The position numbers and the translations under genes were made by a program. The notes under the pieces were generated by a model. The model ran no database searches. It was not told the origin of the DNA and saw only the letters and a program-made list of their open reading frames with translations. DNA of 64,000 nt, from contig JAFQCK010000068.1 of assembly GCA_017416465.1 (NCBI GenBank), forward strand, positions 1 through 64,000, read 5' to 3'. The stretch is from Lachnospiraceae bacterium. GTDB taxonomy: Bacteria; Bacillota; Clostridia; Lachnospirales; Lachnospiraceae. Below are positions 173 to 32,219 of this stretch, piece after piece; position 1 is the first letter of the stretch; each line of letters opens with the position of its first letter.

Positions 173-3100
173 GTGAAAAAAGTAAAAACAAACAAACTCG
201 GAAGGAGAATACTAAGCTTCATGCTGACCGTAGCCTTAATGGTAGGACTAATGCCGGGGAATGTGATGACTGTAAGGGCAGAAGAAAGCAGTTCTACTGA
301 GTTAAGCGTGACAGCCTTTGCTACACCGGAGCAGTTGATGAGCAGTGATAACTTTGCTCTGCATACCGATACAGGAAGAGGTACGGCACAGAAGGTATAC
401 TTCGGAACCAATGGAAGCAATAAGCAGACATGGTACATCGCAGGTTCAGATGCAACTTACAGTATCGTACTGTTGTGTGACCCGTCACTTCCGATGGCAA
501 CCGGTACTATGTTTGAGGATGATTGGGAAAATAACAAAACATATAGTGCAGATTGGAGATGTACCTATGAAACAGCCCCAAATGAGGTCTATCCAAACCA
601 CTACGGAGCAAGTGATTTAAGGGGAGTGTTACAGGGGTATACCAGTAATGATAATACCGGGAAATTTTCAGCGGCCGAAAAAGGGCTGATGCAGTCAACC
701 AAGGTTTATACAGATGATGATAAGCGAAAAGATGAGGGTGAAACGGACTATACCTATTATACAGAGGATGTGCTGTATCCGGCATACGGAGACTTTGACG
801 ATGACCAATATATCACGGTAGGAGCAAACAGCGAAGAAAGCTTAAATGGCGGACTAAAAGTAAGCCTGAAATCAGCACCTTACAATAGCGGAGATGATTT
901 CTGGCTGCGGGCGCCGTATATCAATAGTTACGTTGCGCTCGTTGCGACTCCGGGCGGTTACGTGGGCAGCTACCGTGTATTCAATGTGGACTCGGTTGTG
1001 CCCGCTTTTCGATTAAATCTGTCATCTGTTCTCTTTGCATCTGCTGCGACAGCAGCAACATCTGATGCAAGCCTGACAGATACCATGACCTTCCGTGTGG
1101 ATGGAGATGATAAGATAACAAGCCAAGCATCTTACAGCACAGACAATGTGATAGTGGATGCGGCAGAAGAAGAAACGGTATATCTCTATGTACAGGGGAA
1201 GAACGGAACTACTGACTGGGTATATTCTCAGGAAGTAAGTGCAGATACTACCATAGCTACAGGCACCATTAAGTCTGGTGCGAAGGATAGCAATGGAAGT
1301 GCTGTCAGTCTGACAAGTGTTGATTTAAGCCAGTGCGAGATTTGGATTGAAAAGAAGGTAACAGATGATAATCTGGTATATGCAGTGATGGCAAAGGAGT
1401 TTGAAACTATAGCAACGGTAGCGGTAACGGATATTACTGCACCGGTAGCAGGGGCTGAGCTTGATGTGGTTGCTACATGCAATACCACAGGCGTAAGCAC
1501 TACAACACCGACTGTCAGCTATACAAAGAATGGCGAGTCTGTTTCCGGTAATGCAGCAGGATATCTGGCAGGTTATACAGCTACCGTAGAGTTGGGAGCT
1601 GCTGTAGGTTATAAATTTACTAACGAAACCACCGCTACCATTAATGGTAATGAAGCAAGCGTTTCTTACGATGCTGATACAGGCAAGCTTACCGTAAGCT
1701 ATACCTTTGATAAGACTGCTAAGCTTCCTCTTGGGAATGCATATTATGTAACGAAAGACGAGCTGATGAGTAGCTTTGATTTGGACGGAACGGATGATAC
1801 TGTAGGAAAGGTATACTTCGGAACCAATGGAAGCAATAAGCAGACATGGTACATCGCAGGTTCAGATGCATCTGACAGTATCGTACTGTTGTGTGACCCG
1901 TCACTTCCGATGGCAACCGGTACTATGTTTGAGGATAATAGGAATAATAACAAAACATATAGTGCAGATTGGAGATGTACCTATGAAACAGCCCCAAATA
2001 AGGTCTATCCAAACCACTACGGAGCAAGTGATCTGCGTCTGATTACCTTACCAAGTTTGGAAAGCAGTGCATTTTCCACAAGTGAACAGGATATGATGCT
2101 GGCAACCAAGGTTTATACAGATGATGATAAGCGAAAAGATGAGAGTGAAACGGACTATACTTATTATACAGAGGATGTGCTGTATCCGGCATACGGAGAC
2201 ATTAACGATAAGCAATATATCACGGTAGGAGCAAACAGCGAAGAAAGCTTAAATGGCGGACTAAAAGTAAGCCTGAAATCAGCACCTTACAATAGCGGAG
2301 ATTATTTCTGGCTGCGGGCGCCGTCCTCTGACTATAGTAACTATGCGCACGTTGTGAATCCGGGCTATTACGTGCTCCTCAACTATGTCAACAATGCTCG
2401 CTCGGTTGTGCCCGCTTTTCGCTTAAATCTGTCATCTGTTCTCTTTGCATCTGCTGCGACAGCAGCAACATCTGATGCAAGCCTGACAGATACCCTGACC
2501 TTCCGTGTGGACGATACAGAAAAGATTAAATCAAAAGCTGCTTATACCACATGCGGTGTGACAGTAAATTATGATGAAGGTGATGGAAATGTATTCCTCT
2601 ATGTGCAGGATGCAGACAGTGTGTATTCTGTGAAAATCACAGAGGATACTATAGTGGCATTGTCTGATATGACAGGAATTAATAATCTGACTGATGAAAG
2701 CACCAAGATTTGGCTGGAAAAGTCAGAGGATAATGTAGCGTATGCGGTAATGGCAGAAGCGTTACTTACAGAGCATATACCAAATGCAGATGACGGAGAT
2801 TGCACAACAGCAATAACTTGTAGTAGTTGTGGAACAGTAACCACAGAGGCAAAGGAAAACCATATTGATGACAATGGTGATGGAATTTGTGATAATTGTG
2901 ACTATCTTGTAGCACCGGCACGTGTAGATGAATATTATCAGATTGCAAATGCAAATAATTTGATGTGGTTTGCCCAGCAGGTAAATGAAGGACGGACTAC
3001 TATCAACGCAAAGCTTACAGCGGATATTGATATGAAAGATATCGACTGGACGACTATGAGTAGCTTTGCAGGTACATTTGATGGTGATGGACATACGATT

Positions 3101-5167
3101 TTATATTTGTGTGCAGATGAAAATGGCGGAGATGACGATATTGCAAATGGAAGCAGATGTGGATTGTTCCAGACATTGTCAGTAGGAGGTACAGTTACCA
3201 ATCTTACAATATCAGGAGCACAATTGTGGTCTGCTCACAGTGCAGGTGCAATTGCAGCTGTAAATAATGGTACAATTTCAAAGTGTATTGTGAAAGATTC
3301 AACGATAGAGCTTGGAGCAAGTCATGGTCTTGCGGCGATAGCAGGAACAAATACCGGAACTGTTACGGATTGCGGAGTAGTGAATTGTTTCTTGCAGAGA
3401 AGATGGGGGGCAGCAAATAGTAGCGATTATGCAATAGGTGTTATTGTAGAGGATAATAGTGGTACAGTAAGTAACTGTTTCAGTTATGGATGTACATTCA
3501 GCAATTCGTCTAACTTATTTGCAATTGTTGAAAGCGGTAATGCTCCTGTTAATTGTTATTACTATACAGCGGCTACAGTATCAGATACAGCAGCAACATC
3601 AAAGACAGTAGAAGCGTTTGAAAACGGTGAGGTTGCATATCTCTTAAACGGCTCTTCAAGCGAAAATGTGACTTGGTATCAGACATTGGAAACAGATACC
3701 TATCCGGTACCGGATAATACACATGGTATGGTATATTACGGCTATGTAGATTGTCAGAGCCAAGACAAGATATATGCAAATACAGAACTTTCAAAAGATA
3801 AACCAGAGCATATTCCGAATGAAGATGATGGAAACTGTACAACACCTGTAACTTGTAGTGTATGTGGAAAAGTTACGACAGAAGCGAAGCCACATACAGA
3901 TGAAAATTCCGATAATAAGTGCGATGAATGTGGTTCGGATATAGTTGTATGTACAGAGCATATCCCGAATGCAGATGATGGAGATTGTACAACAGCAATA
4001 ACCTGTAGCGTATGTGGAGAAGTAACCACAGAAGCAAAGGCAACCCATACACCAAATGAAGATGATGGAGATTGTACGACAGCAATAACCTGTAGTGTGT
4101 GTGGCAAAGTAACGACAGCGGCGAAGGCAACCCATACACCGAATGCAGACGATGGAGACTGTACAACAGCGGTAACTTGTAGTGTATGTGGAAAAGTAAC
4201 AACAGAAGCAGGTCATGTAGATGCAAATTCCGATGGAAAGTGTGATGTTTGTGGTTTATTTACAGATGGTATCGGAGCGAATTTGGCAGGATACACAATC
4301 AGCTTAAATGGTAACATCGGTGTAAACTTCTATATGGAACTTGACACAGAGGTAGTGGGTGATACCGGAGCATACATGCTCTTTACATTGCCAAATGGCG
4401 ATACAGAGCAGGTAGCTATTGCAGATGCAACCCAAAATACAACACTTGTAGAAGGCAAGACTTATTATATATTCTCCTGCGAAGTAGCTTCTTATGAGAT
4501 GGCACAGAGCATTAAGGCTCAGATGTTTGACGGAAACGGAAACGGTGGTAAGGAATACAGCTACACCGTAAGAGATTACGCAGAGTATATCATTAACAAT
4601 ACAGCAAGCTATTCTACTGATGGTGTGGCTTTTGCAAAGGCTTTGTTGAACTATGGAGCTTGCTCACAGACATATTTTGAAGTAGAAACAGGCAATCTTG
4701 CCAATAAGAACCTTGATGCAGCAGACCAAACGGTAACAACGCTTATAGCGAGTGACCTTGAAACATACAAGGTATCTGCTACAAGTAATGAATTAGGTAC
4801 ATTTGCCGGATATAGTCTTACATTAAAGTCTGAAACTACATTAAAGGCATATTTCAAGCCGGCTGAGGGTGTGGATGTAAGTAATTTGACATTTACAGCT
4901 AATGGACAAACAGTAACACCTACTAAATCCGGAGATTATTATGTGTTGTCTTTGGAGAACATCAAGGCTTGGGATTTGGATACAAGTTATGCATTTAAGG
5001 TATCTAATGGCAGTGTAGAATTAGAATTTTCTTGCAGCGCATTGTCTTATGGATATAGTGTCTTGAATAAGGGAAACAGCACTTATCCGGACACATTGAT
5101 ACAGTTGATTTCAGCACTTCGTGTATATCAGCAGAAGTCTGAGGTTTATGTTTCGGGTAACAATTAA
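173..5167 (+). CDS. Large secreted multidomain protein with two DUF6273 modules, probable DGR target
   Basis: This 1664-residue protein has a Sec signal peptide (residues 1-36, Lys/Arg-rich start, hydrophobic core, VRAEE cleavage area). Two near-identical DUF6273-type modules follow, at about 75-304 and 547-775 (WYIAGSD, FWLRAP and VVPAFRLNL landmarks). There are five Cys-rich repeats of the form HxPNxDDGxC...CSxCG at about 866-910 and 1212-1360, a GLUG-like segment at 920-1000, and a C-terminal domain from about 1364. No LPXTG anchor is visible, so it is probably released or held non-covalently. The start ATG follows GAGGAGG. Within the two modules only a stretch of about 95 bp differs strongly, and there the codons are NNY; this resembles DGR variable repeats in a C-type-lectin-like fold. 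It lies just upstream of the RiPP-like cassette inside the mobile element. The ligand is unknown. Confidence 0.85.
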   Translation: MKKVKTNKLGRRILSFMLTVALMVGLMPGNVMTVRAEESSSTELSVTAFATPEQLMSSDNFALHTDTGRGTAQKVYFGTNGSNKQTWYIAGSDATYSIVLLCDPSLPMATGTMFEDDWENNKTYSADWRCTYETAPNEVYPNHYGASDLRGVLQGYTSNDNTGKFSAAEKGLMQSTKVYTDDDKRKDEGETDYTYYTEDVLYPAYGDFDDDQYITVGANSEESLNGGLKVSLKSAPYNSGDDFWLRAPYINSYVALVATPGGYVGSYRVFNVDSVVPAFRLNLSSVLFASAATAATSDASLTDTMTFRVDGDDKITSQASYSTDNVIVDAAEEETVYLYVQGKNGTTDWVYSQEVSADTTIATGTIKSGAKDSNGSAVSLTSVDLSQCEIWIEKKVTDDNLVYAVMAKEFETIATVAVTDITAPVAGAELDVVATCNTTGVSTTTPTVSYTKNGESVSGNAAGYLAGYTATVELGAAVGYKFTNETTATINGNEASVSYDADTGKLTVSYTFDKTAKLPLGNAYYVTKDELMSSFDLDGTDDTVGKVYFGTNGSNKQTWYIAGSDASDSIVLLCDPSLPMATGTMFEDNRNNNKTYSADWRCTYETAPNKVYPNHYGASDLRLITLPSLESSAFSTSEQDMMLATKVYTDDDKRKDESETDYTYYTEDVLYPAYGDINDKQYITVGANSEESLNGGLKVSLKSAPYNSGDYFWLRAPSSDYSNYAHVVNPGYYVLLNYVNNARSVVPAFRLNLSSVLFASAATAATSDASLTDTLTFRVDDTEKIKSKAAYTTCGVTVNYDEGDGNVFLYVQDADSVYSVKITEDTIVALSDMTGINNLTDESTKIWLEKSEDNVAYAVMAEALLTEHIPNADDGDCTTAITCSSCGTVTTEAKENHIDDNGDGICDNCDYLVAPARVDEYYQIANANNLMWFAQQVNEGRTTINAKLTADIDMKDIDWTTMSSFAGTFDGDGHTILYLCADENGGDDDIANGSRCGLFQTLSVGGTVTNLTISGAQLWSAHSAGAIAAVNNGTISKCIVKDSTIELGASHGLAAIAGTNTGTVTDCGVVNCFLQRRWGAANSSDYAIGVIVEDNSGTVSNCFSYGCTFSNSSNLFAIVESGNAPVNCYYYTAATVSDTAATSKTVEAFENGEVAYLLNGSSSENVTWYQTLETDTYPVPDNTHGMVYYGYVDCQSQDKIYANTELSKDKPEHIPNEDDGNCTTPVTCSVCGKVTTEAKPHTDENSDNKCDECGSDIVVCTEHIPNADDGDCTTAITCSVCGEVTTEAKATHTPNEDDGDCTTAITCSVCGKVTTAAKATHTPNADDGDCTTAVTCSVCGKVTTEAGHVDANSDGKCDVCGLFTDGIGANLAGYTISLNGNIGVNFYMELDTEVVGDTGAYMLFTLPNGDTEQVAIADATQNTTLVEGKTYYIFSCEVASYEMAQSIKAQMFDGNGNGGKEYSYTVRDYAEYIINNTASYSTDGVAFAKALLNYGACSQTYFEVETGNLANKNLDAADQTVTTLIASDLETYKVSATSNELGTFAGYSLTLKSETTLKAYFKPAEGVDVSNLTFTANGQTVTPTKSGDYYVLSLENIKAWDLDTSYAFKVSNGSVELEFSCSALSYGYSVLNKGNSTYPDTLIQLISALRVYQQKSEVYVSGNN
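902..1012 (+). repeat. Candidate DGR variable region 1
   Basis: Residues 244-280 of the exoprotein. The segment is bounded by the constant TGGCTGCGGGCGCCG on the left and TCGGTTGTGCCCGCTTTTCG on the right. Most codons between these that differ from the second copy end in T or C and vary in their first two bases, as expected from mutagenesis of AAY template codons. A CTGCTG-CGA-CAGCAG hairpin sits 29 bp downstream (1041-1055); downstream hairpins are known at several DGR variable repeats. Confidence 0.65.
2309..2422 (+). repeat. Candidate DGR variable region 2
   Basis: Residues 713-750, the counterpart of variable region 1, with one extra codon. By eye there are about 27 substitutions against region 1, all but about three in first or second codon positions. 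The roughly 95 bases before have one mismatch and the roughly 70 bases after have none. The same CTGCTG/CAGCAG hairpin follows at 2451-2465. The segment is richer in G+C than the surrounding gene. Confidence 0.65.
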
Positions 5168-5922: not shown

Positions 5923-6684
5923 ATGGCAGAGAATAACAGGGCAATTCCTTTTTGTATCAAGCTGGCAGAAGTGGTTATCCGCATTGAGCCTATGTTTGAC
6001 TATATGAAAGAGTATTGTCAGGAATACATTACAGAAGAACAGGCTGCTTTTGCAGTCAGGACAGAACCGGAGGATATTGCCTTTGAGCGTGAGCGTTCCA
6101 GAAAGGAAGCAGAGAGAGAAGGAAGTCCTGTCATGGAATTTTCCGATGCCTATCTGGAAACATTGGCTGTGTACCGTCAGATTGCGGAACGATTACCTAT
6201 GCTTGATACTTTGCTGTTTCATGGCTCTGTGATTGCTGTGGACGGTGCAGGGTATCTGTTTACCGCTAAAAGTGGCACAGGCAAGTCCACCCACACAAGG
6301 CTGTGGAGAGAACAGTTCGGCAATCGTGCGGTTATGGTAAATGATGACAAGCCACTTTTGAAGATAACGGAAGATGGCGTTGCAGCCTATGGTACGCCCT
6401 GGAATGGAAAGCACAGGTTAAGTACCAACATATCAGTACCACTAAAGGCTATTTGTGTGCTGACAAGGGATACAGTCAACCATATAGAGGAAATCGGGCC
6501 GGGGGAAGCGTACCAGATGCTTTTACAGCAGACCTACCGCCCGATGGACAAGGCTTCTATGGTACAGACCTTGAAGCTGATTGATGGAATAATGAAGAAC
6601 ACGAGATTTTATAGGTTAGGATGCAACAGAAATAAGGAAGCTGCCAAGATAGCTTTTGAGGGAATGAATGGAGGATTAGCATGA
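5923..6684 (+). CDS. HPr-kinase/PEPCK-like kinase of a RiPP cassette
   Basis: A 253-residue protein with a P-loop AKSGTGKST at about 115-123, followed by HTRLWREQFG and VMVNDDKPLL. This is the HPrK/PEPCK-like arrangement seen in kinases that modify lasso-type precursors (paeninodin-type, ThcoK/PsmK). It is smaller than true HPr kinases and lacks their N-terminal domain. Its stop overlaps the next start by 4 bp (ATGA), indicating translational coupling to the PqqD gene. By family, the likely role is ATP-dependent phosphorylation of the precursor; the acceptor residue is not evident, since the peptide ends in Pro rather than Ser. Confidence 0.75.
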   Translation: MAENNRAIPFCIKLAEVVIRIEPMFDYMKEYCQEYITEEQAAFAVRTEPEDIAFERERSRKEAEREGSPVMEFSDAYLETLAVYRQIAERLPMLDTLLFHGSVIAVDGAGYLFTAKSGTGKSTHTRLWREQFGNRAVMVNDDKPLLKITEDGVAAYGTPWNGKHRLSTNISVPLKAICVLTRDTVNHIEEIGPGEAYQMLLQQTYRPMDKASMVQTLKLIDGIMKNTRFYRLGCNRNKEAAKIAFEGMNGGLA

Positions 6685-6941
6685 GATTAAGAGAAGGATT
6701 TATAACTCATGAGAGTGCAGGAGAGCATATCACGGTAACAGCCGGAAATACTGTCTTTAACGGAATGGTACGAAGCAATAAGACTGCCGGGTTTATCGTG
6801 GAGTGCTTAAAAGAAAATGTAACCAAAGAGGACATTATTGCAAAAATGCTTGAAAAATATGATGCCGAAAGAGAGCTGATTGAAAAGGATGTAGAGAAGA
6901 TTTTAGAGCAGCTGCAAGCAATAGGAGCCATTGATGATTAA
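6681..6941 (+). CDS. PqqD-family RiPP recognition element protein
   Basis: An 86-residue protein with the PqqD/RRE layout: a short beta-rich N-terminus, then a helical half typical of the family (GFIVECLKENVTKEDIIAKMLEKYDAE region). Stand-alone RREs bind the leader peptide and deliver it to partner enzymes; here the plausible ligand is the YETPEM leader at the start of the cassette. It overlaps the kinase gene by 4 bp and the peptidase gene by 8 bp. Confidence 0.75.
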   Translation: MRLREGFITHESAGEHITVTAGNTVFNGMVRSNKTAGFIVECLKENVTKEDIIAKMLEKYDAERELIEKDVEKILEQLQAIGAIDD

Positions 6942-7371
6942 AATCACTTACGAAGAGGAACTGAATAGAAAGGGAAAGTTTACCTATACCTGTAGCGGTG
7001 TCAGTATGCTTCCGCTTCTTCGTCAGCACAAAGACCTGTTTACCATTGAAAAGAAGCAGGGCAGATGTAAAAAGTACGATGTGGTTCTGTATAAAAGACC
7101 GCCAAAGTCCTTTGTGCTACACCGTGTAGTGGAAGTCCGGGAAAGGGATTATGTTATCCTTGGGGATAACTGCTTAAACAAGGAGTATGGCATTCGTGAT
7201 GAGGATATTTTAGGCGTGATGACTTCCTTTGTCAGAAATGGCAAGGAATATTTGGTAAACCACAAGGGGTATCGGTTGTATGCAGTGGTGTGGTATTTTT
7301 TATATCCGCTTCGGCGGGTTTTTATGAAATGCAAGATAAAGTGCAGAGGAATTTTGAGGAAAGACAGATAG
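6934..7371 (+). CDS. S24/S26-type serine peptidase, probable leader peptidase
   Basis: About 145 residues with the box SGVSMLPLL near the N-terminus (nucleophile Ser at about 24), then YDVVLYKR and FVLHRVVEV. His stands where bacterial signal peptidases have Lys, as in SipW/Sec11-type enzymes. ILGDNCLNKE matches the family's GDN motif. The C-terminus is basic and hydrophobic. I take ATG 6934 as start; an in-frame TTG lies one codon upstream. It probably removes the leader of the neighbouring peptide and would stand in for the transglutaminase-like protease of lasso systems. A role in processing the exoprotein is an alternative. Confidence 0.65.
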   Translation: MIKITYEEELNRKGKFTYTCSGVSMLPLLRQHKDLFTIEKKQGRCKKYDVVLYKRPPKSFVLHRVVEVRERDYVILGDNCLNKEYGIRDEDILGVMTSFVRNGKEYLVNHKGYRLYAVVWYFLYPLRRVFMKCKIKCRGILRKDR

Positions 7372-7372
7372 T

Positions 7373-9103
7373 ATGACGGATAAAAGAGCAATAGTATGGC
7401 TGCTTCGGACAGCCGGAAAGTACAAAGGATATATTATTCTTTTACTGCTTCTCCAGACTTTGGTAAACGGAGGAGCTGTTTGCTATGCTCTTGTAATGAA
7501 GAAAATGGTGGACTCAGCAGTAGGACAGGACAAGGAGGGCTTTTTTATTGGTCTGATTACCTTTGGTCTGCTGATGCTTTCCCTCATGTTAATCCGTGTG
7601 GTGCTAAGACAATTAGAGGAAGCAAACAGAAGCGGTATGGAGAACCGATTTAAGGAAAGGCTGTTTGAGAAACTTTTGCTTAAGGACTACGGACAGGTAA
7701 ATGCAGTCCATTCCGAGGAGTGGATGAACCGTATGACTTCGGATACTTCTGTCTGTGCAGGTGGCATGACGGATATTTTGCCGGGATTTACAGGGATGCT
7801 TGTGCGTATGGCAGGAGCACTCATTATGATGTTTGTGCTACAGCCAAAGCTCGCCTATATCCTGATTCCGGGTGGTGTTCTCTTTGTAGGGATTACGCTG
7901 ATACTGCGTAAGTATTTAAAGGGACATCATAATGCGGTACAGGAGAAGGACGGAGCTGTACGGGTGTATCTACAGGAGCGTATCAGCAGTATGCTTATTC
8001 TTCGTACCTTTGGAGTGGAGAAGCAGGCTATGTCCGGGGCAAAATCTAAATTCGTGGAGCATAAGGGAGCGAGAATGCGAAAAGCATTGATATCCAACCT
8101 GTGCAACACAGGCTTTTCCTTTGCAATCAACGGAATGTATCTGATTGGGATTGGGTACTGTGGATATGGCATATTGAATGGTGTGGTAAGCTACGGAACA
8201 CTTACCGCTATTATGCAGCTCATAGGACAGTTACAAGCTCCGTTATCCGGTATCAGCGGTTTTGTGCCGAGGTTTTATGCGATGATAGCAAGTGCAGAGC
8301 GTTTGATGGAGATTGAAAGCTACAGGGAAGCAAATATAGAGGATGTAAAGACAGCGAAAGAAGCAAAGGAGCTTTATGATAAGGCGGTAGAAGAAATCGC
8401 ATTTGATAAGGTGTCCTTTGATTACATAAAAGAAAATGATAAATGTCCGGTACTGCGTGAAGTCAGCTTATCGGTTCATAAAGGCGATTATGTTGCCATT
8501 ACCGGAACTTCCGGCTGTGGCAAGTCTACCCTGTTAAAGCTCTTAATGGGGGTGTATGAGCCATGTTCGGGTATGATAGATGTAGTGCTGCATGGTGGTA
8601 AAAAAGAGCCGATAGGAAGGCTTCGGCGGTTGTTTGCCTATGTTCCGCAAGGCAATTTCCTCATGGGCGGAAAGATAAGGGAAGTCATAACATTTGGTGT
8701 GGAAGGTGCTGATAAGACAGCTGATTCCACAAATATGGCTGTGGAAAGGGCACTTAAGCTTGCCTGTGGTGAGTTTGTGTTTGATTTGCCGGAGGGACTT
8801 GATACGGTGCTTGGAGAAAAGGGTGCAGGACTTTCCGAGGGACAGATGCAGAGAATAGCAATCGCAAGGGCATTGTATGCAAATGCTCCGGTGCTGATAC
8901 TTGATGAAGCAACTAGTGCATTGGATAGTGATACGGAAAGTAAGCTCCTGAATAACTTGAAGCAGCTTACGGATAAGACGGTGTTTATTGTAACACACAG
9001 ACCGGAAGCACTTAAGATATGCAACCGTAGGATTGAGTTTACAAAAGAGGGAATAATTACAGAGTGTCAGGAGGTGGCAGAAGTTGAAGAAAACACAGTA
9101 TGA
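7373..9103 (+). CDS. ABC exporter (fused permease and ATPase)
   Basis: A 576-residue type IV exporter half-transporter. Membrane segments occupy about residues 15-300 and the nucleotide-binding domain about 335-565. Visible are Walker A GTSGCGKST, the signature LSEGQMQR, and Walker B LILDEATSALD with the H-loop THRPEAL. No N-terminal C39 peptidase domain is present, in keeping with a separate peptidase gene directly upstream (1-base gap). The likely job is export of the matured peptide across the membrane, acting as a homodimer. Its 3' end overlaps the next gene by 20 bp. Confidence 0.9.
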   Translation: MTDKRAIVWLLRTAGKYKGYIILLLLLQTLVNGGAVCYALVMKKMVDSAVGQDKEGFFIGLITFGLLMLSLMLIRVVLRQLEEANRSGMENRFKERLFEKLLLKDYGQVNAVHSEEWMNRMTSDTSVCAGGMTDILPGFTGMLVRMAGALIMMFVLQPKLAYILIPGGVLFVGITLILRKYLKGHHNAVQEKDGAVRVYLQERISSMLILRTFGVEKQAMSGAKSKFVEHKGARMRKALISNLCNTGFSFAINGMYLIGIGYCGYGILNGVVSYGTLTAIMQLIGQLQAPLSGISGFVPRFYAMIASAERLMEIESYREANIEDVKTAKEAKELYDKAVEEIAFDKVSFDYIKENDKCPVLREVSLSVHKGDYVAITGTSGCGKSTLLKLLMGVYEPCSGMIDVVLHGGKKEPIGRLRRLFAYVPQGNFLMGGKIREVITFGVEGADKTADSTNMAVERALKLACGEFVFDLPEGLDTVLGEKGAGLSEGQMQRIAIARALYANAPVLILDEATSALDSDTESKLLNNLKQLTDKTVFIVTHRPEALKICNRRIEFTKEGIITECQEVAEVEENTV

Positions 9104-10229
9104 CATGATATATCTGGCAGCCTGTGGCGTGGATGGTGTCAGTCCTGAGAAAGAGTTTCTGAATGGATTGGATATGGAGAAGCTGTATCGGTTAAGTTAT
9201 AGCCACTTTATGGATGCACTTGTGGGTACGACATTAAAGCAGGCGGGAGTTGCTTTGCCTAAAGGGTGGAATGAGCATATTTCCAAGGCTGTCCGCAAAG
9301 TAGTCCTGTTTGATACAGAAAGAGCAAAGCTATTTTCCTTTATGGAGCAGAAGGGTATCTGGTATCTGCCACTAAAGGGAATTGTATTAAAGGATTATTA
9401 TCCGGCTGTGGGTATGAGACAAATGTCCGATAATGATATTCTGTTTGACTACAGCTATTGTGATGAAGTACAGGACTACATGGAGTCACAGGGGTATGAA
9501 GCTGTTTCCGTAGGTATTGGAAATCATGATGTGTATAAAAAAGAGCCTGTCTACAACTTTGAGCTGCACAGCACTTTGTATAGTGAATTACATCAGAACG
9601 GATGGGCAGAGTATTATGGGAATGTGAAGGACAGGCTGGCATTAAATAGTGGTTCTTCCTATGGGTATCATTTTGCGGATGAGGACTTTTATGTGTATAT
9701 CACATCCCACGCTTACAAGCATTATGCCGGAAGCGGTACGGGACTTCGTACATTGCTTGATTTCTATGTGTATCTGAAGGCAAAGCCGGAGATGGACTTT
9801 GCATACATAGAAAAGGAATGTGAAGTGCTTGGTATCCATAAGTTTGAACAGCAAAACAGAAGCCTTTGTAAGAAGGTTTTTGATGCAGCTGTATTAAATG
9901 GAATAGAAGATTTGGAACAGCGGTTATCAACAGAGGAAAAGGATATGCTTATCTATTACCTTTCTTCCGGTGTGTATGGCACGGTGGAGCGTGGTGTGGA
10001 AAATCGTGTGAAGAAGTTCCAGAAGAAAAGCGGTAGCAGGTCAAAAGTATGGTATCTGTTAAACAGGTTATTTCCGGGGATGGATACATATAAGCATTAT
10101 CCGTTTTTTTATAAACATAAATGGCTATTGCCCGTTTGCTGGCTATATCGTGTTTTTAGGGTGCTATTGAATAAAGGGCGCAGAAATCAGATGGTAAGGG
10201 AAATTAAGGTGGTTAAGAGAATAAAATAG
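9084..10229 (+). CDS. Nucleotidyltransferase-fold protein (NTP_transf_5-like)
   Basis: A 381-residue protein starting at TTG 9084, supported by GGAGG at 9070-9074. Residues around 95-125 read LPLKGIVLKDYYPAVGMRQMSDNDIL, the conserved core of the uncharacterised NTP_transf_5 family (substrate-binding KG plus acidic DxD-type metal site). This family recurs in PqqD/HPrK/ABC peptide cassettes, where its reaction is not established; nucleotidyl transfer to the peptide or to a carrier is a guess. The C-terminus is basic. It closes the cassette, and coupling to the exporter gene through overlap suggests a single operon from 5197. Confidence 0.7.
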   Translation: MKKTQYDMIYLAACGVDGVSPEKEFLNGLDMEKLYRLSYSHFMDALVGTTLKQAGVALPKGWNEHISKAVRKVVLFDTERAKLFSFMEQKGIWYLPLKGIVLKDYYPAVGMRQMSDNDILFDYSYCDEVQDYMESQGYEAVSVGIGNHDVYKKEPVYNFELHSTLYSELHQNGWAEYYGNVKDRLALNSGSSYGYHFADEDFYVYITSHAYKHYAGSGTGLRTLLDFYVYLKAKPEMDFAYIEKECEVLGIHKFEQQNRSLCKKVFDAAVLNGIEDLEQRLSTEEKDMLIYYLSSGVYGTVERGVENRVKKFQKKSGSRSKVWYLLNRLFPGMDTYKHYPFFYKHKWLLPVCWLYRVFRVLLNKGRRNQMVREIKVVKRIK

Positions 10230-11413: not shown

Positions 11414-11851
11414 ATGGAGCAATCTTCTTCCGGTAGGAATGAAACAAATCTGCACAGGTTTGATAGTTACTGCAAAAAAATTTTAAAGAACGAAGCCATA
11501 GACTGTTATCGTGAGATACAGAAGCACAGGCAAAGAGAAATCTTTTTTTCAGAACTTAGTGAGAAGGAGTGGAAACAGCTTTATATGGAAGATGAGTATG
11601 ATTTAGATACCTGTAATTTCCGTGTGCTAGGGTATGATGTTGAGGTTAAAGATGCCCTGATAGCAGAAGCGTTGAAGCTCTTGTCAGAAAAGAAGCGGGA
11701 AGTTGTGCTTATGTCCTATTATCTGGATATGTCAGATACGGAGATAGCCAGACTCTTAAAACTTAGGCAAAGCACTATCCACTATCACAGGACAAGCTCA
11801 TTAAAGACCTTGAAGCAATATCTGGAGGCTAAAGCAGATGAAGAAATGTAA
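11414..11851 (+). CDS. Sigma-70 region-4-like regulator (Tn916 Orf7-like)
   Basis: A 145-residue protein whose C-terminal half (about 85-138) is a sigma region 4 HTH: ALKLLSEKKREVVLMSYY, then DTEIARLLKLRQSTIHYHR. A perfect AAGGAGGTG lies upstream of the ATG. In Tn916-type elements this gene promotes transcription of excision/transfer functions. Its stop overlaps the next start, so the two are coupled. Confidence 0.8.
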   Translation: MEQSSSGRNETNLHRFDSYCKKILKNEAIDCYREIQKHRQREIFFSELSEKEWKQLYMEDEYDLDTCNFRVLGYDVEVKDALIAEALKLLSEKKREVVLMSYYLDMSDTEIARLLKLRQSTIHYHRTSSLKTLKQYLEAKADEEM

Positions 11852-12083
11852 GACTTGTAAGAATGGGAACTTGCTACCGTTCCCGGTAATACTTGCAGCT
11901 TCACAGGGAGATGCAGAAGCTATCGGCAAAGTGCTGGAGCATTATGACGGGTACATAATTACTTTGAGTACACGGACTCTCTATGACGAGAAGGGCGCAC
12001 CACATATCTGTGTGGATGAGGGCATTCGTCGAAGATTGCAAACCAAATTGATAGCAGCGGTTTTGAATTTTAATATCGCATAG
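11838..12083 (+). CDS. HTH protein of conjugative transposons (Tn916 Orf8-like)
   Basis: An 81-residue protein of the conjugative-transposon HTH type: a short Cys-rich start (CKTCKNG), then LPFPVILAASQGDAEAI and LEHYDGYIITLSTR, and an RRRLQTKLIAAV helix near the end. It overlaps the sigma-like gene by 14 bp. Together they regulate the element in Tn916 relatives. Confidence 0.75.
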   Translation: MKKCKTCKNGNLLPFPVILAASQGDAEAIGKVLEHYDGYIITLSTRTLYDEKGAPHICVDEGIRRRLQTKLIAAVLNFNIA

Positions 12084-12459
12084 GCATAATCGGTCAGCGT
12101 TGCCCCTTTCCATTCGCTGACCGGGTGCGTATGCACCTGTACCTTGACAACTGAATATTTTTGCATACAGGACATGAGGGTATGTGGAGCCACTAGGCAG
12201 ATTCGCCATGATATACCTGCTCTTTTTTGTGTAGAGTGAATGCGAGGAAATACTGAAAGAGTGTATTGAAGTTAAGGTATGGAGCGAGAAAATTTGGCAA
12301 AGTGTGTAGCGGTTACATGGGGCGATGAAGCATATCCGTAATAATGATACTTCCGGAGAAATCCGGTCAATTTTTTGACGGTGCAAGACCGATGTGGGCA
12401 GCGTAACGAACTGCCACCTGTATTGCAGTTTTTATTATATTAAGGAAAGGGAGTTGGTT
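12084..12459 (+). other. Structured non-coding leader between Orf8-like gene and recombinase operon
   Basis: These 376 bases lack a credible gene. They contain a perfect 9-bp stem CGGTCAGCG/CGCTGACCG (12089-12122), then a GGTGC-GTAT-GCACC hairpin, and further on a CCGG-AGAAAT-CCGG hairpin followed by TCAATTTTTTGAC. The block is GC-richer than most spacers here and may form an RNA structure controlling the downstream genes. I do not recognise a named RNA family. Confidence 0.4.
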
Positions 12460-12609
12460 ATGGAAGGCAGGAAATTGTTGAGATATAGTATGCAGCTATC
12501 CATGCTGAAGCAATTACTGACATTGAAATTGATAAATGAGCTGGAGTATCAGCTTATTGAGAAAAAGCTGAAAAAGGATTATGGAGTGGTGTCAAATATT
12601 ACCGCTTGA
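12460..12609 (+). CDS. SHOCT-like small protein upstream of the recombinase
   Basis: A 49-residue protein from ATG 12460, preceded by AAGGAAAGGGAG. It is helical and basic; LKQLLTLKLINELEYQLIEKKL resembles the SHOCT oligomerisation motif. Peptides like this commonly precede TndX-type serine recombinases and may assist excision, though that role is inferred from position. A longer reading from 12394 is possible but has no ribosome site. Confidence 0.6.
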   Translation: MEGRKLLRYSMQLSMLKQLLTLKLINELEYQLIEKKLKKDYGVVSNITA

Positions 12610-12675
12610 CTTATGAAGTGTTGCGTTGTAAAATTGTATTAACACTACGGTAGGAACACAAAAGGAGGTAACTAG

Positions 12676-14412
12676 ATGGAAGTTGAAATAATAAAAGCGA
12701 ATAATCCTTTTGATGAGTCTTCCAATGGAAGAAAGATAGAGCGTATGCGAGTAGCTGCGTATTGTCGTGTTAGTACGGATGACGAAGACCAGATAAAGAG
12801 TTATAATTCTATGGTCAGGTATTACACAGACCTAATAAAGAATAATAAGCAGTGGGCGTTTGCTGGTGTTTATGCGGATAAAGCTATTACAGGAACCAAA
12901 ACAGACAAGAGAGAGGAGTTTCAGAAACTTATTCAGGATTGTTTGGCGGGCAAAATTGATATGGTTATAGCTAAGAGTATTCCGAGATTTGCAAGAAATA
13001 CTCTGGATACGCTTAAATATGTCAGAATGCTAAAGGAAAGAAACATTGCAGTATATTTTGAAGTAGAGAAAATCAATACATTAAAAGATGGCGAATTTTT
13101 AATTACAATTTTGAGTTCTGTTGCACAGCAGGAAGTAGAAAATACATCTGCGTATGTAAAAAAAGGCTTGAAAATGAAGATGAAACGAGGAGAGCTTGTT
13201 GGTTTTCAAGGTTGCCTTGGATATGATTATGATGTGGTTACAAAATCGTTATCTATCAATGAAGAAGGTGCTAAAACTGTTAGATACATATTTGACAGAT
13301 ATGTAGCGGGAGCAGGTAGCACTATGATTGCACGAGAGTTGAATGAGCAGGGGATAATGACCATAAAGGGCAATCCTTGGAGTTCATCGAGTGTAATGGG
13401 TATCGTAAATAATGAGAAATATAAAGGCGATATTTTATTAGGAAAAACATTTACGGTAGACCCGATTTCAAAAAGAAGATTGGATAATTTAGGTGAGGAA
13501 GATAGATTTTATATTAGAAATCATCACGAACCGATTGTTTCAGAAGAAACCTTTGCAAGAGCTCAAGAGATAAGAGAGCGTAGAGGTGGTGGAAGAAAGT
13601 CGGTTACACCGGGGAAGCGTGAGAAGTTCAGCAGACAGTATGCTTTTAGTTGTTTGCTTGAGTGTGGCTTTTGCGGTGCGAGTTTATCAAGGAGAGCATG
13701 GCATAGCAGTTCCAAGTATAAAAAAACGATTTGGCAATGTGTGAAATCAACCAAACATGGAAAACGGTACTGTCCGGATAGCAAAGGGATACCGGAACAG
13801 GTTATTGAGGAAGCATTTATTGAGTCATACAAAATGCTGTGTGCCGATAATAAAGATGTTCTTGAGGAGTTCATTCGCAGAGTGGAAAAGACCTTGAGCG
13901 AGGACTCGATAGAAGATAAAATTATGAAATTGAATAAAAGTGCCGATAACATTCAATATAAGAGAAAAAAACTGCTAGACAATTATCTGAGTGGTGTTGT
14001 GGCACAAGATATTTATGAAGAAACTGATGTTAGCCTACAAAAGAAGCTGTCTGATGTTAGTGCCAAGCTTAAAATGCTGGAGCAGCAGATGGATGATGAA
14101 GATAGCTTGAAAAGAAGAATATCTGATTTCAAAAGAGCATTATCAAAAAATGAAGTTCTGGAGGAATTTGATAGAGGAATTTTTGAGAGCATAATCGAAA
14201 AGGTTATTGTTGGTGGATACGATGAAGATGGAAACAAAGACCCCTATAAAATTACTTTCATTTATAAGACAGGGTTTAGAAACGAAATTGGAAATGCAAA
14301 GATGCGTTATGGGAAGTCTGACAGTATAGTAGACAATGCGAAAAAATTGTGTTCCCATATCAAGGACGAGGTAGAAGATTTGTGTTCCTATGTGAGTGAC
14401 AACACACTGTGA
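12676..14412 (+). CDS. Large serine recombinase (TndX-like)
   Basis: A 578-residue protein with an N-terminal resolvase/invertase catalytic domain (residues 25-175): VAAYCRVSTDDEDQ holds the nucleophile Ser, and SIPRFARN the conserved Arg. A recombinase domain follows (about 190-300), then a zinc-ribbon segment with paired Cys (CGFCGASLS, CVKSTKHGKRYC) and a long coiled-coil (about 410-490), the standard layout of TndX/TnpX-type enzymes. AAAGGAGG sits before the ATG. It would catalyse excision and integration of the element, and its place at the end of the GC-richer block puts the element end just downstream. Confidence 0.9.
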   Translation: MEVEIIKANNPFDESSNGRKIERMRVAAYCRVSTDDEDQIKSYNSMVRYYTDLIKNNKQWAFAGVYADKAITGTKTDKREEFQKLIQDCLAGKIDMVIAKSIPRFARNTLDTLKYVRMLKERNIAVYFEVEKINTLKDGEFLITILSSVAQQEVENTSAYVKKGLKMKMKRGELVGFQGCLGYDYDVVTKSLSINEEGAKTVRYIFDRYVAGAGSTMIARELNEQGIMTIKGNPWSSSSVMGIVNNEKYKGDILLGKTFTVDPISKRRLDNLGEEDRFYIRNHHEPIVSEETFARAQEIRERRGGGRKSVTPGKREKFSRQYAFSCLLECGFCGASLSRRAWHSSSKYKKTIWQCVKSTKHGKRYCPDSKGIPEQVIEEAFIESYKMLCADNKDVLEEFIRRVEKTLSEDSIEDKIMKLNKSADNIQYKRKKLLDNYLSGVVAQDIYEETDVSLQKKLSDVSAKLKMLEQQMDDEDSLKRRISDFKRALSKNEVLEEFDRGIFESIIEKVIVGGYDEDGNKDPYKITFIYKTGFRNEIGNAKMRYGKSDSIVDNAKKLCSHIKDEVEDLCSYVSDNTL

Positions 14413-25182: not shown

Positions 25183-28100
25183 ATGAAAAAAATAAAAAAG
25201 ATTGTCTTAGTGTTTCTTTTGATATTAGCATTGATAATACAATACTTTCATATTGCAGATGTGTTCAGGGTGTCTGGTTCGGGTACGAAACAACTGGCTA
25301 TTGGTGATTATTTGTATTTGAATCCTACATGGAGTAGCGATACTTGGAATCAATCTAGTCCGGATATATTTTTTCGCTATGACTATGATGGAACAACGAA
25401 TTGGAAATATTTACTAATGGAAAAGTGTACAGATAATAATGATAATGTATTGTTTAGGATAAAAATTCCTAATGACTTAAAAGGGAATTTCCAGTTTATT
25501 CGAGCAGCTAAAGGTGTAATTTCAAATGGATATGCAGGAGCATGGAATAGTAATTATTGGAATCAAACATATGCTTTGAGTTTATCTGCTGCACAAGCGA
25601 ATAGTTCAAATACATATAAATTAACTGGTTGGATGAATGATAATGAGAAACATTCTTCAGGTGAATGGGCAACAGGAGATGATGCTTGGACTATATTGAA
25701 CCATGCTGGAGAAACATTATATTTTTATAACACTGATTATAAAAGTACACTTATTACTGAAGTGAAAGCATTATTTTATGAGTCGGAAACATCTGCAGCA
25801 AATCAGGTTCAGATGAGTTTGGTATCAGATAACCTTTGGTCAGTAACTATTCCGGAAGGATATGATTATAATATGGTATCCTTCTATAATGCAAATAGTG
25901 AATTGTTAGCTGATGTTGAAATCATGAATGGTGATTTTGACCCGGGTGGAGATAACACTTACTATTACAACAGAACTATTATGGAGAATGGCAACACAAT
26001 AAGCAGTTTTGGAGAAAAAATAACTCAAACTACAAGTATTGATGGAAAAAAACTTTACTTTAATCGTTTTAGTTTTATGGTAGATATAGGAACGGCACCT
26101 ACCATACAGATAGGAAATGGAGATGTCATTACTTTAAGTAAAGATAGTTCGGATAGTACGGTTTATAGTTATACCATACCTTCAGGTATAGGAGCTACCA
26201 GCCAAACAGTTATTACCGTAAATTATAATGGCAATACGTATAATTTCTTTTGGACTGATCTTACATATAATTGTGTAAATCCGGTAGATAATATTGCAAG
26301 TGCTTCGCAGACCTATACTTCGGTGCAAAGTGGAATGAGAGCGGTGTATTTCGATGCTACATTATCAAAACTTCCATATTCAGATGCAGGAGATTATGGA
26401 ATTCCTAAGAAGTCGGGAACGATAAGGTATTATGCATATGATGGTTCAAGTAATGATTCAGAAGGCAATATGGAAAAGGTACCGGAATTTACCATAGATG
26501 GTAACACTTATTCAGATGTATATGTGGCATATGTACCACAAGCTTGTACAAAGATTGCGTTTTCCAATTTTGATATGTCAAGTGCAACGAATTACGGTGG
26601 GCATGGTGAATCTACTGAACAGGTGGATATTCCGACAGATATTTCCAGTCCATGTTTTTATGCTGATACAAGTGATACTTATATATATGATGGTGGAACA
26701 AGGAAAGGATACTGGGCAGGAATAGGAGAGATAAGAAATCCTGAAACAGAAGCAACGATAAAAGGAAATGAAGTGGTAAATATTCTTGAGGCAACGCAAA
26801 CAAGAGATTTAGATACGTTGTATTTAAATACTACTTTTTATGATTATTATACAGATTATGAATTAAATGGCAATAACAGAGATGATTACAATTTTAGTGG
26901 TCTTAGTCATAGACTTTATCAGCCATTTAGGCAGTTTAATCAGGCTTTAAGTTCTTATTATAGTAGTTTTAGGGCACAAGCCCCTTTATATTGGGGTAAT
27001 TTCCAAAATTATACAGGCGAAAATAGTTATCATTTTAATGAAATAAGTGGAGATTTGAATTTATATGGAAGTGATAATCCAAATGAATTTTTTTATATGA
27101 ACAACTCGGGATGGGGGCGTAATGGAGATGCACTTTCAATATTTACAGCAGCAACCCAAGGACTTGTAAGTGACACTCTTGTAAATGGAAATCTTATGAT
27201 AGAGTGTGGAAACTCAGGAACTGTAAATGCACCATATTTTGATGATGATTTCATACAGGGAGAAAATTCAAAAAATACAATACTTGGAAAAGTATATGAA
27301 AATGTATCATTTCCATTTAAGAAAAAAGCAATTTCAAGTAAAAGTGCTTCAGGAGTATCAGGTACGGTAGAGTATTGGTACTTTGACAGTAAGGAGACAG
27401 ATAATAATTTAAGATTAAAAAAAGATAGTACAACCGGAAGTTATTTCTTAAATCCATCTTCAGACCAGGTGCATGGTACGGTAACCAGTCAAGGAAATGC
27501 GGTATCAACTTCAGATGTGAATTTTTTTCCGTTTAATGGTAGTGGTCAGAATGCGAATGCGGGTAAATTAAATTATGGTTTTGGTACAAGATTTGATTTG
27601 AATTTCAGATTAACAGAAAATGGAACTGTAGTTAATTCTGATAGTAATGAAGTGCCTATAGAGTTTAACTTTTCGGGTGATGATGATATTTGGATATTTA
27701 TAGATGGTAAACTTGCTCTTGACCTAGGTGGTGACCATGGTGCTGCAACCGGATATTTGAATTTTGAAGATAAAACATGGCATGTTGAATATGTAAAAAA
27801 TAGTAATTCTTCAGGAACCACAGAAAAAGATAAAGCAATAGGTAACTTTTCATTGGAAGGGAGTAATACTGATGAGCATACTTTAACATTATTTTATATG
27901 GAACGTGGTTTATGGGAATCTAATATGTATATGAGTTTTAATTTCCCAGATGCAAACTATTTTGAAGTAGAGAAACAGATTGATGAATCTAATGTAAATC
28001 AGGAATTGTTTAGTGGTTTATTTGATAATTACAGTTTTGAATTTGACATAAGAAATTTGGCAACACATTTTGGGACAAAAGAAGTAACTTCGTCTGATGA

Positions 28101-29823
28101 GATTCTTACAGGATTTATTACTCCACAATATCAGATACCGGATTACGGTTCTGCGACTTCGGGACAATTAGAATATCCGGAAGGTGCAAAATATAAGATT
28201 GATAAAAACGATGGAACAAGTGAAAATGGTACGATTGATGAAACCGGAAAATTTAATTTATACAACCATGATAATATTTTGTTTGTTGACCAATTCAGGC
28301 GAGGTAGTTATATATCTGTCAGAGAAAAAACAGATGAATTATTTACTACAAGTTATACAATGTACGAAGATGGAGAGGCAGTAACTTATATGAGTGATGG
28401 TGATACTGTCAATCTGGGAGCAGGGGGTGTAGCTACATCTCTTGCAGGTGTTACAGGTCCGAATGTGGATGATGGACGAATTGAAGTATATCAGACAGGA
28501 ACAGTTGATGGTGTGGTAGTATCAAATAGCGGATATACTTCTACAGCAAAACCTAATGATAATACTATAGTTTTCAGGTCATATTTATCACCGGACAGCG
28601 AAACAATAAATACGAGATTAAAAGTAATATATACAAACAAAGTAAAGACAGGTTCGATAAGGATTACAAAAGATAGAGCTTATGACACAGACGTATTAAA
28701 TGGAGATTATACGTTTACAATTACGTTTGAAGACGTAGGTGGTCAAAATCTTGAAGGTGATTCGATTATACAAAAAACTGTTGTCTTGAAGTATGGAGAA
28801 ACTGTTGAGATTGCAGGTATACCAATAAATACAAAGTATACTATAACAGAAGTTGTTTCTGATGAATCAAAGCTATGCGAAGTAGTTGAAAGTACAGACA
28901 AGAGCTTTGAATATGATATTGGAACAGGTTTAACATCAGGAATGATAAATGAAGATGGAGAGGTATTTGATTTTATATTTAAAAATACATTAAAGCCGCT
29001 TAAAAATGTCATTGTTATTAAAAGATGGCAGGATACCATTGGAAATTCATTAACTAATAATTTACCGGAATCTGTTACAGTACAACTTCAAAGACGACAA
29101 GGTGATAATGAATTTGTGAAAGTAGATGAAGCACAAGATGTTATATTATCGGCTTCAAATGGATGGACTTATACATTTGCTAATTTGGATAAATATGTAG
29201 ATTATACAGTAAATCCACTTGTAGAATGGGAGTATAGAGTTGTTGAAATAAAGGATGATGTCGTAATAGAAAATGACGGATTATCAGGTGATTATAAAGT
29301 TACATATAATCAGACTGATACAGAAGGTGCATTGATTCAGACAATTATCAATACTTATATTCCAAGGACGATTATAAAGGTCGTTAAATCGGATGCAACT
29401 AATCCTGATTTGAAACTTGAAGGTGTTGAGTTTAAACTGGAAAAGTTGAATGATGATGATACCGTAGATACTACATTTACTGAGATTATACAGGCTACGG
29501 ATGTGTTAGGTGTAACAGAATTTATTAATCTTAAAGAAGGAAGGTATAGACTTACAGAGACTAATACTAATGAGGAATATATTCTGTTAAAAGAACCTAT
29601 TACGATAGTAATTAACAGAACCGGTGGAGATTCAACTATTAATGGAGAGGTTTGCACAGTTGACGATGATTCAATTACAGTCAATGTTGCAAATAGCAAA
29701 AAATTCGTATTCCCTGCGACAGGCGGATATGGAAGTACAATTTATTTTATGGCAGGCTTTATCCTTATATGGATGGCAGGCTTTACATATAAAATTTTGA
29801 GATTAAGGAGAAAAAAGCTATGA
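25183..29823 (+). CDS. Large surface adhesin / tip pilin with fibro-slime and Cna-B domains
   Basis: A 1546-residue secreted protein. The signal peptide (1-28) is followed by a long beta-rich head. A fibro-slime domain lies at about 780-930 (NFSGDDDIWIFIDGKLALDLGG), then Cna-B/SpaA-type repeats at about 1145-1235, 1270-1360 and 1390-1480 (LKLEGVEFKLEKL, GRYRLTET). The C-terminal sorting signal is FPATGG, with a hydrophobic helix and RLRRKKL. The layout is that of a sortase-linked tip adhesin. Its stop overlaps the major pilin start by 4 bp. Head ligand unknown. Confidence 0.8.
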   Translation: MKKIKKIVLVFLLILALIIQYFHIADVFRVSGSGTKQLAIGDYLYLNPTWSSDTWNQSSPDIFFRYDYDGTTNWKYLLMEKCTDNNDNVLFRIKIPNDLKGNFQFIRAAKGVISNGYAGAWNSNYWNQTYALSLSAAQANSSNTYKLTGWMNDNEKHSSGEWATGDDAWTILNHAGETLYFYNTDYKSTLITEVKALFYESETSAANQVQMSLVSDNLWSVTIPEGYDYNMVSFYNANSELLADVEIMNGDFDPGGDNTYYYNRTIMENGNTISSFGEKITQTTSIDGKKLYFNRFSFMVDIGTAPTIQIGNGDVITLSKDSSDSTVYSYTIPSGIGATSQTVITVNYNGNTYNFFWTDLTYNCVNPVDNIASASQTYTSVQSGMRAVYFDATLSKLPYSDAGDYGIPKKSGTIRYYAYDGSSNDSEGNMEKVPEFTIDGNTYSDVYVAYVPQACTKIAFSNFDMSSATNYGGHGESTEQVDIPTDISSPCFYADTSDTYIYDGGTRKGYWAGIGEIRNPETEATIKGNEVVNILEATQTRDLDTLYLNTTFYDYYTDYELNGNNRDDYNFSGLSHRLYQPFRQFNQALSSYYSSFRAQAPLYWGNFQNYTGENSYHFNEISGDLNLYGSDNPNEFFYMNNSGWGRNGDALSIFTAATQGLVSDTLVNGNLMIECGNSGTVNAPYFDDDFIQGENSKNTILGKVYENVSFPFKKKAISSKSASGVSGTVEYWYFDSKETDNNLRLKKDSTTGSYFLNPSSDQVHGTVTSQGNAVSTSDVNFFPFNGSGQNANAGKLNYGFGTRFDLNFRLTENGTVVNSDSNEVPIEFNFSGDDDIWIFIDGKLALDLGGDHGAATGYLNFEDKTWHVEYVKNSNSSGTTEKDKAIGNFSLEGSNTDEHTLTLFYMERGLWESNMYMSFNFPDANYFEVEKQIDESNVNQELFSGLFDNYSFEFDIRNLATHFGTKEVTSSDEILTGFITPQYQIPDYGSATSGQLEYPEGAKYKIDKNDGTSENGTIDETGKFNLYNHDNILFVDQFRRGSYISVREKTDELFTTSYTMYEDGEAVTYMSDGDTVNLGAGGVATSLAGVTGPNVDDGRIEVYQTGTVDGVVVSNSGYTSTAKPNDNTIVFRSYLSPDSETINTRLKVIYTNKVKTGSIRITKDRAYDTDVLNGDYTFTITFEDVGGQNLEGDSIIQKTVVLKYGETVEIAGIPINTKYTITEVVSDESKLCEVVESTDKSFEYDIGTGLTSGMINEDGEVFDFIFKNTLKPLKNVIVIKRWQDTIGNSLTNNLPESVTVQLQRRQGDNEFVKVDEAQDVILSASNGWTYTFANLDKYVDYTVNPLVEWEYRVVEIKDDVVIENDGLSGDYKVTYNQTDTEGALIQTIINTYIPRTIIKVVKSDATNPDLKLEGVEFKLEKLNDDDTVDTTFTEIIQATDVLGVTEFINLKEGRYRLTETNTNEEYILLKEPITIVINRTGGDSTINGEVCTVDDDSITVNVANSKKFVFPATGGYGSTIYFMAGFILIWMAGFTYKILRLRRKKL

Positions 29824-32003: not shown

Positions 32004-32017
32004 TAAATAAAATGATT

Positions 32018-32060
32018 ATTTTGAAATGCAGGTTGAGTAATCAATCTGCATTTTCAAAAT
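32018..32060 (+). terminator. Terminator-like hairpin after the pilin gene
   Basis: A long stem built from ATTTTGAAATGCAG and CTGCATTTTCAAAAT with an inner TTGA/TCAA pair. It separates pilin from sortase transcription. Confidence 0.55.
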
Positions 32061-32069
32061 AGAAATTTT

Positions 32070-32098
32070 TTGCATAATGTACAGAAAACAATTATAAT
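32070..32098 (+). promoter_or_regulatory. Sigma-A promoter of the sortase-MoxR genes
   Basis: TTGCAT, 17-bp spacer, TATAAT, about 120 bases before the sortase start. Confidence 0.7.
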
Positions 32099-32219
32099 AA
32101 AGAACAGATTGTTGTCTGTAGATTATACAATTTGTCTGATTTTATGTAATTACTAAATGGTTGTATAATAATATTTTTACAAATACTTAATACAAATTTT
32201 TAAGAAAGGCAATTTTACT

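Follow-up and report, generated by a model that had tools for sequence, protein, structure and literature searches.

The exoprotein gene at the left end of the analysed DNA very probably carries two variable regions (VRs) written by a diversity-generating retroelement (DGR), at 917-1012 and 2324-2422, as judged from where their substitutions fall. The window, meaning the whole analysed stretch of 64,000 nucleotides, starts at base 1 of contig C41 (JAFQCK010000068.1) in a Lachnospiraceae assembly (GCA_017416465.1) of 172 contigs and 3.71 Mb, which is 89.5% complete and 5.0% contaminated. With modest confidence, we regard the gene as an orphan target, whose DGR-made repertoire would now be fixed, or edited only when another element supplies a template and a reverse transcriptase (RT). 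The features of the gene are as follows.

173-5167, + strand: secreted-protein-like gene, a single open reading frame of 1664 amino acids with a long C-terminal part
395-1084, + strand: module 1, ending where the modules differ again (two-module alignment)
917-1012, + strand: putative variable region 1 (VR1) including its constant 3' block, with 27 differences to copy 2
991-1005, + strand: constant block 1 (IMH-like), CTCGGTTGTGCCCGC, a 15-mer constant in both copies
1041-1055, + strand: hairpin CTGCTG-CGA-CAGCAG after VR1
1811-2494, + strand: module 2, extent as for module 1 (two-module alignment)
2324-2422, + strand: putative variable region 2 (VR2) including its constant 3' block, one codon longer than VR1
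2401-2415, + strand: constant block 2 (IMH-like), CTCGGTTGTGCCCGC, the same 15-mer
2451-2465, + strand: hairpin CTGCTG-CGA-CAGCAG after VR2

Both DUF6273-like modules, predicted to be C-type-lectin-like, lie inside this one reading frame, and the start of the protein is signal-peptide-like by eye. The DUF6273 profile (PF19789) reached 26.5 bits against the whole 1664-residue protein, with a cut-off of 23.5, which is a weak match in which no single stretch passes alone. No PDB sequence matched the exoprotein at E<=1, that is, no solved homologue was found there. The modules had been described as almost identical; this holds around the variable segments and fails for a patch at 617-706, which is strongly diverged from its counterpart at about 2033-2106. 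This patch does not have the appearance of a DGR product. Outside the patch and the VRs, the module alignment contains 15 scattered substitutions (sites 455-896), 12 of them at first codon positions. We infer that each module would present a randomised binding face extracellularly.

The original prediction had counted by eye about 27 substitutions and one codon indel between the copies, nearly all at first and second codon positions. The alignment gave 27 differing aligned bases and an extra codon in copy 2, and these differences were split 11/13/3 over the three codon positions. The third letter was kept in all 14 codon pairs that differ in amino acid and end in C or T in both copies. The near identity of the flanks was also confirmed, as 1 of 111 bases differed before the VR (up to a CCG codon) and 0 of 72 after it; the VRs differ by 26/78 (33%) and the flanks by about 1%. 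The same pattern was found in a set of seven VRs of the window type, whose pairwise differences by codon position were.415/.510/.182 inside the VR versus.073/.103/.152 in the upstream and.091/.131/.155 in the downstream flank. The usual third-position excess is thus inverted inside the VR in these seven sequences, and over all 21 pairs the third letter was kept in 287 of the 298 amino-acid-different codon pairs ending in C or T. VR2 and the VR of one relative, L052, have several codons in common, one of which (GTG for GCG) is not at a template adenine.

A homologous locus, L093, supplies a natural template with which these differences can be compared. This 6,037-base contig, which is also the source of L058, carries in order an Avd gene, a template repeat, an RT gene and a homologous exoprotein gene with one VR. 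The Avd was recognised by NF033474, at 7e-15 and under the cut-off of this profile, and by phrog_3206 'Avd protein of DGR'; the RT matches phrog_1423 and the BPP-1 RT (1e-49) and has the motifs GLPMGNQSSQ and YMDD. The VR of L093 mismatches its own template at 17/35 adenines and at 0/73 other bases. The adenines of this template hold 21 of the 26 comparable window differences versus 12 of the 79 unchanged sites (p=1.7e-9), and when only codon positions 1 and 2 are counted, they hold 21/24 differing versus 10/46 unchanged sites (p=1.2e-7). It had been claimed that all differences fit the adenines of a single template; 21/26 fit the homologous template of L093, 5/26 do not, and no template of the window itself was found in the assembled genome. 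This adenine enrichment is the main support for DGR authorship because it is independent of guessing the window's template. The two window VRs mismatch the L093 template at 16/72 and 18/73 non-adenines, which we would read as divergence between the templates.

The template of another locus, L059, also predicted the window differences (p=9.8e-8), with 8/26 of them off its adenines. The fit of the L059 VR to its own template is imperfect (mismatches at 10/28 adenines and 6/77 others), and this pair was missed by our search for template and VR pairs, which detected one in 13 of 22 loci scanned. The VR of L057 fits the L059 template, which comes from a different genome, with mismatches at 17/30 adenines and 3/78 others. 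As a control, the search recovered the pair of the Bordetella phage BPP-1 DGR (AY029185), in which the mismatches are adenine-only (18 A and 0 other). BPP-1 has one VR with the RT and template adjacent, unlike the window.

A constant block and a hairpin had been noted after each copy, and both the 15-mer and the CTGCTG-CGA-CAGCAG hairpin were indeed located twice. A corresponding block ending in GTGCCCGC is common to the template and the VR in L093 and L059. A hairpin after the VR occurs in some DGRs and is not required of all; in BPP-1 it matters for homing. When the 55-base stretch was shuffled 300 times, 6 and 7 of the shuffled sequences equalled the window hairpins, and over the scored copies the number that equalled a single hairpin ranged from 3 to 30 of 300. 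A single hairpin is therefore weak evidence, and it is the recurrence that counts. A hairpin of 5-7 bp was found in 21 of the 24 VR copies scored, which do not include L048; in 18 of them it sits at offset 22 or 23 in the post-VR pattern, and in L050, L052 and L055 elsewhere; it was absent in three of the 24, namely L061, the second copy of L064, and L044. As evidence, this recurrence is weakened by the shared ancestry of the post-VR stretch.

It had further been proposed that a DGR acting in trans diversifies the two sites, and that a third copy of the flanks should stand beside a DGR-type RT. No such copy was found in the assembled 89.5% of the genome. A DNA search of the assembly for a third copy of the flanks or a template returned only the two VRs, and the constant 15-mer, with up to one mismatch, occurs there at only two places, both of them VRs. 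The four RVT_1 matches in the assembled genome are two intron-type RTs, one UG26 DRT and one fragment, none of DGR type, and the BPP-1 RT as query found only two intron-type genes. The two intron-type RTs and the UG26 RT were ruled out as the DGR source by motif and profile. No Avd match lies within the window. A genome search with PF19789 picked up a single other gene and missed the window gene itself, and therefore it is no test for further modules. Of the proposal, DGR authorship is supported by the L093 cassette and the adenine match; trans action is not, as neither a DGR-type RT nor a template was found in the assembled genome. The original prediction had also named what would speak against it, namely a genome with no template or DGR-type RT and variation not tied to template adenines. 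The former is what we found in the assembled 89.5%, while the latter is contradicted by the adenine enrichment. A missing cassette is nevertheless not proven, because the assembly reaches 89.5% completeness and its contig begins only 172 bp before the gene.

Relatives of the gene show what may have happened to such a cassette. Among the other 8 genomes of the same genus none matched, and matches came from 14 of the 396 family genomes examined besides its own, mostly over the post-VR stretch, 57 bases of which are 95% identical between the window and G398, a genome of another genus. The post-VR DNA pattern was found at 17 loci in the reference genome collection, with titles of Lachnospiraceae, other Clostridia or Bacillota, and one Bacteroides. 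The VR skeleton of the window is carried by L052, L060, L064 (two VRs) and L065. At the start of L064 and in L065 (1344-2805), the exoprotein frame leaves the available stretch inside a repeated inter-module linker, which suggests tandem arrays of more than two modules.

At least 1.9 kb of upstream sequence was available for 11 of the 17 pattern loci (the six with less were left out of the count). L058 has the full cassette and L059 a damaged one, and 9/11 have no RT or Avd match (1e-3) upstream. L059 keeps the Avd, the template and RT residues 1-102 and 300-341, and L067 keeps RT residues 233-342. In the closed genome of G398, which has no RVT_1 match, a two-VR homologue is preceded by a 29-residue RT remnant (residues 314-342). 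The two exoprotein copies of G398 lie in a 10,145-base block of 99.98% identity with an integrase and a MobA/MobL relaxase, and the VR codons are identical in both block copies. A search with the L093 RT found 31/397 family genomes at E<=1e-30, with 35 places listed, of which 17 were examined. Damaged RTs precede exoprotein-like frames in L132 and L134, the RT of L131 is internally deleted, L135 has an RT remnant without an adjoining exoprotein, and contig ends truncate L130 and L133. These relatives indicate that such exoproteins can outlive their cassette.

In an orphan target of this kind, the ancestral cassette would have stood directly upstream of the exoprotein gene. Avd and RT would turn the template RNA into cDNA, making errors at adenines, and this cDNA would replace the VR, starting from its constant 3' end, with the hairpin marking the target. 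The modules would have been duplicated or homogenised and VR1 and VR2 then rewritten separately, and the protein would show two randomised lectin-like faces outside the cell. It is unlikely, in our estimate, that a complete and active DGR elsewhere in the cell, on a contig or mobile element that the MAG lacks, rewrites both VRs in trans. The contrast between the VRs (26/78 different) and their nearly identical flanks suggests rewriting after the modules became alike, about 10% of the genome is missing from the assembly, and the available text on Thiohalocapsa (PMC10907252) infers in-trans diversification of incomplete loci from metagenomes. However, no DGR-type RT, template or further constant block was found in the assembled part. 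Among the 17 pattern-locus genomes, 12 have an RVT_1 match and three (G411, G412, G413) have an RT with both the DGR-type motif and BPP-1 similarity, two of these being prophage-like with other targets. A still smaller chance is given to an intact cassette in cis, just beyond position 1 and lost at the contig break, in the place it takes in L093, immediately before the target gene. In other assemblies, too, contigs break off inside DGR-like RT genes or no more than 40 bases from them (G025:C33, G085:C46, G065:C81), and therefore fragmented assemblies may hide cassettes. Against this, bases 1-172 of the window have no RT similarity, whereas in L093, L059, L067 and G398 the end of the RT, or what is left of it, adjoins or runs into the target frame; a cassette directly upstream is therefore less likely, and one could still lie beyond the contig edge. 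In the near relatives L052 and L060, the exoprotein is preceded by other genes.

The explanation that dispenses with a retroelement is very improbable. It would have ordinary mutation under diversifying selection, or segments imported by recombination, make the VRs, and conversion keep the rest alike. The diverged patch at 617-706 and the mostly first-position substitutions elsewhere suggest that selection or mosaic exchange does act on the modules, and the GTG for GCG codon common to VR2 and L052 lies off the template adenines. But third letters kept in 14/14 pairs, and in 287/298 over seven VRs, argue against such a process, as do the coincidence of the differences with the adenines of an independent natural template and the fact that the homologous gene is a DGR target. 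A broader reading, which we offer as speculative and rather doubtful, is that a mobile-element-borne family of secreted lectin-like proteins uses DGRs intermittently. A cassette would seed random binding sites and be lost, and the fixed VR modules would spread, duplicate in tandem and recombine among gut Clostridia as a shared, inherited repertoire, which could be edited again when a compatible template and RT arrive. The hints for it are the codon sharing of VR2 and L052, the fit of the L057 VR to the template of another genome, and the duplicated two-VR block of G398 after RT loss.

Several other sources were considered and rejected. The prophage-like DGRs of the L059 and L060 genomes have other targets and were rejected as trans sources. 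The L094 template agrees with the VRs roughly as poorly as does the BPP-1 control (the L095 template was outside this comparison). The L083 RT of the L052 genome has an SQ-like motif, gave no BPP-1 match at 1e-3 and looks retron-like. Viral contigs queried with the VR skeleton, the post-VR pattern, the module protein and the L093 RT gave no confirmed match. Phage and plasmid DNA gave one short chance-level match each, and plasmids searched by protein gave none. The phage-labelled, unverified record MT836599.1 (L177) has a module homologue with no RT or Avd match; it looks bacterial, and its other frames are bacterial or plasmid-like by eye.

According to the available text of two reports, DUF6273 is known as a DGR target in phages (PMC11792537, PMC10743442). 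The phage 'tentaclin' DGRs nd4 and nd12 are described in part of PMC10743442 as likewise having an N-terminal DUF6273/C-type-lectin-like domain and a VR away from the 3' end of the gene; nd12 has the order Avd, RT, target1 as in L093, and its RT is 44% identical to that of L093. As described there, the tentaclin target is a phage structural protein with one VR, whereas the window encodes a bacterial exoprotein with two VRs, for which our searches found no cassette. In the available text on Faecalibacterium prophages (PMC11792537), the VR is at the C-terminus of DUF6273 as here, but the targets are prophage proteins with a local cassette and one VR each. Thiohalocapsa PB-PSB1, as presented in part of PMC10907252, resembles our case in having several VRs per target, degenerate loci, a proposed trans action and transposons damaging cassettes; it differs in the organism and its target proteins, in complete loci in the same genome and in observed population diversification. 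Remote variable proteins of cyanobacteria are, in the available text of PMC7517822, C-type-lectin VR proteins away from the cassette, as here, but there template similarity tied them to a DGR within the same genome. No published description of the exoprotein family was found in titles and abstract starts among the matches listed, a scope that mostly leaves out subscription journals. The single ingredients are precedented, and what is new is the tandem modules in secreted proteins near mobile-element genes.

It is reported, in the available text of PMC8144416, that surveys seeking an RT beside the target miss remote targets. Exoprotein genes such as this one are missed by RT-adjacency surveys, and should orphan VRs be widespread among gut Clostridia, DGR-made diversity reaches further in the gut than present estimates allow. 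Members of the family also form a graded natural series (complete cassette, damaged RT, bare target) in which the fate of a randomised binding site after hypermutation stops can be followed.

The surroundings of the gene gave further observations. In the window, 11414-14412 encodes a Sigma-70 region 4 protein and a large serine recombinase (12676-14412), which suggests an integrative element that may include the exoprotein. The L093 cassette is on the same contig as a TcpC conjugative-transposon gene; because of this gene and the serine recombinase, mobile carriage is likely. The region at 5923-10229 encodes a PqqD-like protein, an ABC exporter and an NTP_transf_5 nucleotidyltransferase, and looks like a peptide (lasso-like) maturation cluster adjoining the exoprotein. 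Pilin-type proteins (GramPos_pilinD1, SpaA, Cna_B) and a sortase are encoded at 25183-33059.

The first 21 bases of the window are a (GCACA)n repeat, through which no partner contig could be joined to position 1. G398 has an (ACAGC)12 tract about 220 bases before the homologous start codon. (CACAG)n tracts of at least 4 units occur in 7/397 family genomes, namely at the start of the window and at one or more places in G398, G214, G387, G326, G243 and G143. Several of these tracts directly follow promoter-like boxes (TTGACA, then a -10-like box; by eye), and the downstream genes differ. Because of this position, the pentamer tract may be a phase-variable leader.

The UG26-type defence RT of the own genome (G000:C151, L003, 1108-2385, - strand; PADLOC 2e-157) stands beside a TIR-like protein (3-1085, - strand; by eye), and RTs with the UG26-RT motif, by motif only, are found in several exoprotein-carrying genomes. 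Another protein of the own genome (G000:C51, L037, 1465-2934, - strand) combines an N-terminus that looks TIR-like by eye with a DUF6273 domain after it, and it is possibly a sensor form of the same domain.
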